This document shows, in pieces, positions 16,027-42,135 of a DNA stretch of 52,936 nt (position 1 is its first letter; every line of letters begins with the position of its first letter). Below the pieces are notes generated by a model. The model was given only the letters and a program-made list of their open reading frames with translations. It had not been told where the DNA came from and made no database searches. The DNA comes from Phenylobacterium parvum (GTDB lineage: Bacteria; Pseudomonadota; Alphaproteobacteria; Caulobacterales; Caulobacteraceae): the NCBI GenBank assembly GCA_029977805.1, contig JAPOKE010000002.1, positions 1 to 52,936 on the forward strand, read 5' to 3'. The translations under genes and the position numbers were made by a program.

Positions 16027-17331
16027 ATGTCCGACACCCTCGCCGCCGAAATGCCGGAAGTCCGCCCTGCAGGTCCCTTCAGCCGCTGGGAGCGGATGGT
16101 CGCCGGCCGCTACCTTCGTTCCCGCCGCCGCGAGGGCGGCGTCGCCCTGATCGGCGTCATCGCCTACATCGGGATCGCCCTGGCGGTGGCGGTGCTGATC
16201 ATCGTCATGAGCGTCATGAACGGCTTCCGGGCCGAGCTCCTGTCGCGCATCCTGGGCTTCAACGGCCACGTCTTCGTCACTGCGGCCCCCGCCTCGGGAG
16301 TCGATCCCGCCGGCCTCGCCGGGCGCCTCTCCCGTATCCCTGGGGTGGTCCAGGCGGCGCCGGTGATCGAGGGGCAGGTCATGGCCGTGGGCGACGGGCA
16401 GGTCTCGGGCGCCATCGTCCGAGGCATCTCGCGCGCCGACCTCGCCGCCACGCGCCTGGTCTCCGACAACATCAGCCCCGGCGGGCTGGAGGGCTGGGGA
16501 GAGGGCGAGTACGGCGGCGACCGCGTCCTGGTCGGCGAGCGCCTGGCGGCCAGCCTCGGCCTGCGCCCCGGCGATCCCATCACCCTCATCTCGCCCACGG
16601 GCGCCGCGACGGCCTTCGGCGACGCCCCGCAACGCAAGACCTTCATCGTCTCGGGCGTCTTCAGCGTCGGCATGAGCGAGTACGACCAGACCTTCCTCTA
16701 CATGCCGATCGCGCAGGCCGGCCTGTTCTTCGGCCGGGAGGGCGCGCCGGACTTCATCGAGCTGCGGCTGGCGAACCCGGACCGGGCCTCGGAGATCAAG
16801 GGGCAGGTCGCCGCCCTCGCCGGGCCGGCCGCCTCCGTCTCGGACTGGACCGAGCGCAACGCCGCCTTCTGGGGCGCCCTCAAGGTCGAGCGGAACGTCA
16901 TGCGCCTGATCCTGATGATGCTGGTCCTGATCGCGGCGGCCAACATCATCTCCGGCCTGATCATGCTGGTGAAGAACAAGGGCCGGGACATCGCCATCCT
17001 CCGCACCATGGGGGCGGGGCAGGGGGCCATCCTGCGGATCTTCTTCATGGCCGGGGCGGCGGTGGGCGTGGCCGGGGCCCTCACCGGCCTTCTCCTGGGC
17101 GTGGTGTTCTGCACCTACATCGGCCCGATCCAGCAGGCGGTGGAGTGGGTGACCGGGGCCCGGGTCTTCGCCTCGGACGTCTATTACCTGTCGCGCATCC
17201 CGGCGCGGATCGACTGGGGCGAGGTCGGCCTGATCCTGGGCTGGTCCCTGGCGGCCTCCTTCCTGGCCACCCTGCCGCCCGCCTGGCGCGCCAGCCGCCT
17301 CGATCCGGTGGAGGCCCTCCGCTATGAGTGA
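16027..17331 (+). CDS. lolC: lipoprotein-releasing ABC transporter permease (LolC/LolE/LolF type)
   Basis: This is the inner-membrane permease that extracts outer-membrane lipoproteins and passes them to LolA. It is 434 aa from ATG 16027. The first transmembrane helix follows the [11 protein letters not shown] motif. A large periplasmic MacB-PCD-like domain spans about residues 85-270, and three C-terminal helices follow, with [18 protein letters not shown] forming the coupling region. A single permease gene beside lolD, with no separate lolC/lolE pair, matches the LolF arrangement of many alphaproteobacteria. It overlaps lolD by 8 bp. Confidence 0.92.
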
Positions 17332-18007
17332 CGGCCCCGTCCTGTCCCTGCGCGACCTGCACCGGACCTACCGGTCCGGCGACAGGCTCCTGCACGTCCT
17401 CGATGGCGCCGAGCTGGACCTCTCGGCGGGCGAGATCGTGGGCCTGGTGGGGCCATCCGGGTCCGGCAAGTCTTCCCTCCTGCACGCCGCGGGGCTCCTG
17501 GAGCGTCCGACTTCCGGCCGGGTGCTTGTCGAGGGGAGGGACTGCACGGACCTTTCCGACGCCCTGCGGACGGCCGTCCGGCTGGCGGCGATCGGTTTCG
17601 TCTACCAGGCCCACCACCTCTCGCCCGAATTCACCGCCATCGAGAACGTCATGCTGCCCCAGCTCATGGCGGGCCGGACCCCCGCCGCCGCCCGGGAGCG
17701 CGCCGCGGCCCTCCTGGCAGAGCTCGGGCTCGCGGAACGCCAGGAGCACCAGCCGGCCCAGCTCTCCGGCGGCGAGCAGCAGAGGGTGGCCGTGGCCCGG
17801 GCCCTGGCCAACCGTCCGCGCATCCTCCTTGCCGACGAGCCCACCGGGAACCTCGACCCGGAGACCTCGGCCGCGGTCTTCGACAACCTGCGCGCCATGG
17901 TGCGGGGGCAGGGGACAGCCGCCCTGATCGCCACCCACAACCTGGAGCTCGCGGGCCGGATGGACCGGGTGCTCACCCTGCGCCAGGGCCGCATCGTCCC
18001 GGCCTGA
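17324..18007 (+). CDS. lolD: lipoprotein-releasing system ATP-binding protein
   Basis: This is the ABC ATPase that powers lipoprotein extraction with the adjacent permease. It is 227 aa. Walker [10 protein letters not shown] is at residues 43-51, the Q-loop/LolD region contains [16 protein letters not shown], the signature is [15 protein letters not shown], and Walker B is [12 protein letters not shown] followed by the switch His in ATHN. ATG 17324 lies inside the end of lolC (8-bp overlap), implying coupled translation. Confidence 0.95.
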
Positions 18008-18028
18008 CCCCGCGTGCGTTTTTCCCCC

Positions 18029-18057
18029 TTGCGATGAGAACAAAACCGGAATAGGAA
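18029..18057 (+). promoter_or_regulatory. candidate sigma-70-type promoter for the sidA-like gene
   Basis: TTGCGA (18029-18034), a 17-bp spacer and TAGGAA (18052-18057) form a plausible -35/-10 pair. The -10 element runs into the LexA box, so repressor binding would block polymerase. The consensus match is modest; the positional fit with the operator is the main support. Confidence 0.45.
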
Positions 18058-18069
18058 CATTTCACGAAC
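18055..18069 (+). promoter_or_regulatory. LexA (SOS) operator upstream of the sidA-like gene
   Basis: GAAC at 18055-18058, seven bases, GAAC at 18066-18069. This is the reverse complement of the alphaproteobacterial LexA consensus GTTC-N7-GTTC. It lies 18 bp before the ATG of the 29-codon gene at 18088, and the same spacing occurs at the lexA promoter in this window. SOS control is expected. Confidence 0.82.
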
Positions 18070-18087
18070 AAGGTGGGAGATCGAGAC

Positions 18088-18177
18088 ATGGCTCGACTTG
18101 CAAGGGAATCGCTGGCCTTTCTGTCCGTGGCCGGCTTTGTGTGGATGATGTGCCAGGTCGCAGTCCTCGCGGCCTGA
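18088..18177 (+). CDS. sidA: SidA-like SOS-induced cell-division inhibitor (29 aa)
   Basis: This is a 29-residue protein: a short basic, amphipathic start ([11 protein letters not shown]), one hydrophobic transmembrane helix containing VAGFVWMM, and the end QVAVLAA. It is preceded by AAGGTGGGAG as ribosome-binding site and by a perfect LexA box 18 bp upstream. In Caulobacter crescentus, SidA is a 29-aa SOS-induced inner-membrane peptide that inhibits division through the FtsW/FtsN divisome. Size, membrane topology and LexA control all match. Identity is inferred from these and from recollection of the family, not from an alignment. Genes this short are often missed. dnaE starts 43 bp downstream, so the two may be co-transcribed under DNA damage. 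Confidence 0.8.
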
Positions 18178-18220
18178 GGGCCGGCGTTCCGCAGCCTGCG
18201 GAGAGGGACGGGAAGGACCA

Positions 18221-21650
<3,430 letters not shown>

Positions 21651-21652
<2 letters not shown>

Positions 21653-42120: not shown

Positions 42121-42135
42121 GTTCTTCTGGTGTTC
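42121..42135 (-). promoter_or_regulatory. LexA (SOS) operator of lexA
   Basis: Plus-strand GTTC (42121-42124), seven bases TTCTGGT, GTTC (42132-42135): an exact alphaproteobacterial LexA box. It overlaps the promoter -10, giving classical autorepression. It is the internal control that supports the matching box at 18055. Confidence 0.9.

Follow-up and report, generated by a model that had tools for sequence, protein, structure and literature searches.

We propose that the 29-codon gene at positions 18088–18177 of the window, a stretch of 52,936 nucleotides from Phenylobacterium parvum, is sidA, that it would be repressed by LexA through a tandem operator, and that its product would act as a damage-induced brake on FtsW/FtsI/FtsN; we put the probability of this joint reading at about 93%. 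For the window itself such an orthologue of Caulobacter SidA is expected and ordinary. The new part lies outside the window's family, where peptides unrecognised by the libraries tested stand before dnaE. The interest of the locus lies in this wider family and in a testable tie of a division brake to the replicase.

Results

An orthologue of SidA directly before dnaE

The ATPase gene, two LexA-type boxes, the 29-codon frame and dnaE all lie on the + strand, in that order:

17324..18007, + strand: ABC-transporter ATPase gene (Pfam ABC_tran, 115.7 bits), presumably of the LolD type
18029..18034, + strand: possible −35 element TTGCGA, weak, read from the sequence (TTGAC in relatives)
18038..18052, + strand: LexA box A, imperfect, GAACAAAACCGGAAT (GAAC-AAAACCG-GAAT), read from the listing and recurring in relatives
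18055..18069, + strand: LexA box B, perfect, GAACATTTCACGAAC (GAAC-ATTTCAC-GAAC), from a motif search
18072..18079, + strand: putative ribosome-binding site GGTGGGAG, by inspection of the sequence
18088..18177, + strand: sidA, 29 codons and stop (NF033228 match; ATG 18088, TGA 18177)
18178..18220, + strand: sidA-dnaE spacer of 43 nt, without a terminator-like site in the scan
18221..21652, + strand: dnaE, DNA polymerase III alpha subunit, 1143 aa (Pfam DNA_pol3_alpha, DNA_pol3_finger, PHP, HHH_6)

The window peptide matches a single NCBIfam model, the equivalog NF033228.1 div_inhib_SidA, over positions 1–29 of 29, scoring 60 bits where the cut-off is 35; the match from DNA scores 57.6 bits. 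Judged by this match, 18088–18177 is the orthologue of Caulobacter SidA, as the first-pass annotation of this DNA had supposed. The 29-codon frame with one membrane helix that it described is found at 18088–18177, with the helix recognised by inspection, and the ribosome-binding site that it placed before the frame is plausible at 18072–18079, also by inspection. It had called the gene unlabelled, which is right for the raw sequence and wrong in that NCBI holds a SidA family model. A GTG start at 18073, giving a 34-aa frame, was dismissed because it follows the LexA box at 4 nt and because it is the ATG with which the first position of the SidA model aligns. Ribosome profiling led to a corrected sidA start codon in C. 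crescentus (PMC4117421).

NF033228 scored over its cut-off in 43 of the 398 genomes of the order, the window's own included, and all 43 belong to family f1, which we infer from the named dnaE loci to be Caulobacteraceae. With 93 f1 genomes in the sample, about half score below the cut-off, and the family therefore drifts fast even inside f1. A tblastn search with the peptide, which the first-pass annotation had suggested as a check, gave a match in 90 of the 92 other f1 genomes at E <= 1, a level at which chance matches occur in other families too, and in 53 of the 92 at E <= 0.001. Among 14 named control genomes, seven gave an NF033228 match and one passed the cut-off; the latter is probably Caulobacter vibrioides. 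The nearest dnaE loci are those of Phenylobacterium MAGs (L039–L041), at 91–92% identity, and by this the window belongs to a Phenylobacterium-like lineage within Caulobacteraceae.

We also observed a second SidA-like frame of 37 residues in an f1 genome (G017) whose main SidA match is on another contig. It lies on the minus strand at 1473–1586 of L146 (G017:C3:313600-316700) and scores 28.5 bits, below the cut-off; its 3.1-kb stretch contains no perfect LexA box, and the 200 nt before the frame hold one lone half-site.

The sidA gene is under purifying selection

Of 523 relatives, the best 80 supplied the dnaE loci in which conservation was followed; these come from named records, whose titles are mostly Phenylobacterium, Caulobacter, Caulobacteraceae, Brevundimonas and Asticcacaulis, with some given as Alphaproteobacteria, Proteobacteria or bacterium. 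A SidA frame lies within 450 nt before dnaE in 80/80 of these loci by a pattern check that was drawn up with five exceptional loci in view. From the 80, 75 SidA frames were carried forward; those with a GTG start (L081, L089) or without W19 (L100, L104, L110) were excluded. For the codon test, the 64 of 76 genes with exactly 29 codons were kept and the other 12 dropped.

Mean pS was 0.57 and mean pN 0.21 over the 2009 of 2016 pairs with less than 97% identity, and pN was below pS in 2003 of those 2009. Pooled over all pairs of the 64 genes, pN/pS is 0.38, a rough ratio because synonymous sites are near saturation. A dN/dS near 1, which the first-pass annotation had held up against its own reading, is the opposite of this outcome: sidA is under purifying selection. 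The window gene differs from those of L039, L040 and L041 by 14 synonymous changes and 0 non-synonymous ones, and comparison with seven further relatives gave differences of both kinds. L9, V18 and W19 do not vary among the 64 aligned genes.

A predicted tandem LexA operator

The perfect LexA box GAAC-N7-GAAC that had been reported at 18055–18069 is present there as GAACATTTCACGAAC. The earlier reading named this box B alone and overlooked the imperfect box A at 18038–18052; its plausible promoter overlapping the box gained no backing from a consensus scan of 17950–18300, which found no sigma-70-type match, and TTGCGA is for that reason only a guess as the −35 element.

By frequency in the window, GAAC-N7-GAAC is unremarkable: 0.89 matches are expected and 2 are seen, a number also reached by 19 of 100 shuffles; the other match, at 42121–42135 on the minus strand, is at chance level. 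Genome-wide, the pattern occurs 42 times against 11 for a reversed control pattern, and both recA and ruvC have the LexA motif in front of them here. In a scan of ten proteins encoded close to a subset of these 42 boxes, recA and ruvC were the clear SOS genes, radC, dprA and coaBC matches were also among them, and five had no match at 1e-10. Box B stands above chance because a perfect box is conserved upstream of SidA genes and because the motif occurs before recA and ruvC and, genome-wide, more often than its reversed control. The tandem pattern occurs once in the window's own genome (85.8% complete), at 18038, and its reversed control 0 times.

Upstream motifs were counted in the 115 nt before 76 SidA genes (75 relatives and the window). 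A perfect box is present in 67 of the 76 and absent within this distance in 9, and 75 have a box whose second half is GAAC or GAAT. The core of box A, GAACAAA-N4-GA, occurs in 69 genes and TTGAC in 48; the strict tandem form is found in 48/76, and two looser tandem patterns in 59/76 and 67/76. The recurring layout is a TTGAC-like element, GAAC-N7-GAAT, 2–3 bases and GAAC-N7-GAAC. It is because this layout recurs in the upstream DNA of relatives that the sidA operator looks tandem. We therefore predict a LexA operator in the sidA promoter region, made of a perfect and an imperfect box, and infer that box A is itself a LexA binding site. In Caulobacter, about 97% of SOS promoters are described as having a single LexA box, and sidA is treated as an early SOS gene (PMC12700426).

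In seven relatives (L080, L081, L089, L098, L101, L105, L107), an additional perfect box, GAACATCTTGTGAAC, precedes box A by one base, and in the same seven box B is without a perfect second half. In L051, L055, L065–L068, L073, L074 and other relatives, ATCCAC or TTATCCACA stands near the LexA boxes, a motif that we take to resemble a DnaA box; neither form was seen in the window leader.

A possible connection between sidA and dnaE

The first-pass annotation had dnaE beginning 43 bp past the sidA stop with no terminator between them; dnaE does start at 18221, and a scan of 17950–18300 found no terminator-like site. In the 75 relatives, the sidA stop and the aligned dnaE start are separated by 36 nt in the median (range 21–262), the spacer is at most 120 nt long in 72, and a run of five T occurs in 0/75 spacers. 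This anatomy would allow damage-induced co-transcription to raise dnaE. If this coupling is true, read-through would bring the replicative polymerase gene into the damage response.

Peptides before dnaE in other alphaproteobacterial families

Our survey rule called for an ATG frame of 24–34 aa within 450 nt before dnaE, containing a hydrophobic 17-residue stretch (mean >=1.5), with GAAC-N7-GAAC/T within 110 nt before the peptide frame. One f2 locus with less than 200 nt upstream was left out, as were weak second dnaE-like matches (L206, L207, L235–L237). Box and peptide together were found in 11/12 loci of family f4, where the region of the miss (L168) reads as dnaE coding sequence, in 11/28 loci of f3 and in 0/11 loci of f2. 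In f5 they occur together in 20/27 loci and the peptide alone is found in 24/27; a longer or GTG-start frame is visible in the other three. Shuffling gave an expectation per family of 0.00–0.01 loci for box and peptide and of 0.1–0.7 for the peptide alone.

For the other families of the class, 112 loci were fetched from 200 dnaE-positive genomes, and L263 was dropped as too short, leaving 111; the remaining dnaE-positive genomes mainly had weaker dnaE matches, many from small genomes. With the limit raised to 40 aa, 14/111 had box and peptide; a lone box was found in 3 and a lone peptide in 5. By eye, a 47-aa peptide can be made out in L241 and L293, two of the three loci with a lone box, and in the third (L294) the box lies inside the ATPase gene. 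The class-wide total is thus 16/111 loci, two of them by eye, from 12 families, against a shuffle expectation of 0.0; the layout of box and peptide was not shown by the other 95/111. Outside Caulobacteraceae, then, the peptides have 25–47 aa and one hydrophobic stretch and stand behind LexA-type boxes and before dnaE; the distance from peptide start to dnaE exceeds 200 nt in several loci of f3 and f5. As controls, 58/189 dnaE-upstream regions passed with the 40-aa limit against 0/189 of their reverse complements, and the longer loci (L154 onward), cut into 1886 pieces, gave 21 matches, all of them dnaE-upstream peptides.

These peptides before dnaE in other families are under selection. In seven groups that were hand-picked for alignability and are not a random sample, pN/pS was 0.04 in f3 (6 genes), 0.29 in f5 (7 genes), 0.00 and 0.41 in f4 (2 and 3 genes) and 0.16, 0.03 and 0.13 in three class-level pairs. 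The survey thus yields candidate peptides that stand at a set position before dnaE, each behind a LexA-type box, and for which division inhibition outside Caulobacter is a candidate function.

Six f3 loci without the peptide (L180, L183, L186, L197, L198, L200) have an imperfect box, GAAC-N7-GAAT, directly before dnaE. Counted within 120 nt of dnaE, this box is present in 6/17 peptide-less f3 loci against 0.08 expected, at 60–90 nt before dnaE; it was found near dnaE in 1/11 f2 loci and in 0/96 class-level loci without box and peptide. The f3 count would favour a tie of dnaE to the damage response, for which the imperfect form of the six boxes and the f2 and class-level counts speak less.

A proposed kinship with SidA

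At E <= 10, NF033228 matched 0/10 peptides tested from f3, f4, f5 and other families, and the sole matches of these ten to any model were weak and below cut-off. Profiles were compared from alignments picked and built by hand, against permutations that keep composition and not helix periodicity. The SidA profile matched that of f4 with a probability of 94.6 (0/100 permuted profiles as good; 95.4 in the tool's own run) and that of the class-wide set of 16 with 92.8 (0/60). Its match to f3 was marginal (40.3, 1/100; own run 31.6), and for f5 there was no direct signal (1.0, 33/100; own run 0.8). The f4, f3, f5 and class-wide profiles all match one another, with 0/60 permuted profiles as good. 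By eye, features common to the peptides are, in most cases, a basic or polar residue and then D or E immediately ahead of the helix, small residues in its early part and often a W. The profiles thus support a putative SidA superfamily, directly for f4 and the class-wide set and by linkage for f3 and f5, since the f4 and class-wide profiles match f3, f5 and SidA.

Discussion

Based on our findings, we suggest the following mechanism for the window gene. In undamaged cells, LexA bound to the tandem operator, with box A in the presumed core promoter and box B just after it, would keep sidA off. Upon DNA damage, RecA would be activated and LexA cleaved, so that the 29-aa peptide would be made; SidA would then insert in the inner membrane, hold FtsW/FtsI/FtsN inactive and delay constriction. 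That the window peptide acts as it does in Caulobacter would follow from orthology, and FtsW is encoded in the genome (360.3 bits, cut-off 337.5). For Caulobacter, LexA control of sidA is described in PMC12700426, and action of C. crescentus SidA in trans through FtsW in PMC4211646, where an FtsW mutant resistant to SidA is also reported.

The window sidA seems to belong, as one branch, to an older family of single-helix peptides that are under LexA control and stand before dnaE. A fuller form of this idea, to which we give even odds, is that single-helix division inhibitors under LexA control form an ancient and rapidly evolving family of the Alphaproteobacteria that stands directly before dnaE, with SidA as its Caulobacteraceae branch, and that one damage-induced transcript supplies both a divisome brake and extra replicase; in some f3 genomes without the peptide, the imperfect box GAAC-N7-GAAT would act on dnaE. 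Such a family would have gone unseen until now because one branch alone has a model. To our knowledge, SOS division inhibitors are known from few Alphaproteobacteria. SidA was reportedly first described by Modell in 2011. Among the matches listed, the titles and abstract openings hold no report of SidA outside Caulobacter or of a peptide before dnaE, and in the main texts searched dnaE has 0 occurrences; the passages on SidA mention neither tandem boxes nor a location before dnaE.

The peptides outside Caulobacteraceae might instead be unrelated membrane peptides that gained LexA control independently, as could be read from the failure of NF033228 to match any of the ten tested and from the absent f5 and marginal f3 signals of the SidA profile. 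Against this, place, size, boxes and topology are the same as for SidA, the SidA profile matches f4 and the class-wide set better than any permuted profile, and those two in turn match f3 and f5 (0/60 each); we hold independent origins to be unlikely. A different view of the small frame is that it is a leader ORF tuning dnaE translation or transcription in cis, with a peptide that has no target. The short spacer before dnaE in relatives, the same address in other families, and a peptide sequence that drifts strongly between families while its place stays fixed would all suit such a role. Yet the peptide is under selection, with pN/pS of 0.38 in Caulobacteraceae-type genes and 0.00–0.41 in the seven hand-picked groups, SidA acts in trans in C. 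crescentus (PMC4211646), and some f3 and f5 peptides start over 200 nt before dnaE; we consider this role improbable. The abundance of GAAC-N7-GAAC expected in the window (0.89) would also accommodate a chance open frame beside a chance LexA-like site; we rejected this, with a probability that we consider negligible, on the conservation and selection of sidA, to which the SidA family match and the 58/189 against 0/189 regions outside Caulobacteraceae may be added. We thus retain LexA-controlled sidA as our reading of 18088–18177.

Compared by sequence alone, the window gene resembles C. crescentus SidA in its 29 aa, single membrane helix, predicted LexA control and equivalog score, and we saw no functional difference. 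YneA (B. subtilis), SosA (S. aureus) and ChiZ (M. tuberculosis) are longer than SidA, YneA has a LysM domain, unlike SidA, and SulA of E. coli, an SOS-induced division inhibitor like SidA, is soluble. As described in PMC4211646, SulA differs from SidA in disrupting FtsZ polymerisation, and DidA of C. crescentus is, like SidA, a small single-helix damage-induced division inhibitor on the FtsW/I/N complex; unlike SidA, DidA has 71 aa, is induced by DriD and not via LexA, and interacts with FtsN. We rejected a DidA identity for the window gene, which has 29 aa and LexA boxes against 71 aa and DriD dependence. YneA, SosA and ChiZ share with SidA the character of damage-induced membrane division inhibitors, YneA is described as interacting with FtsW, and low-confidence models place SidA on the opposite side of FtsW TM7 (PMC13396833).
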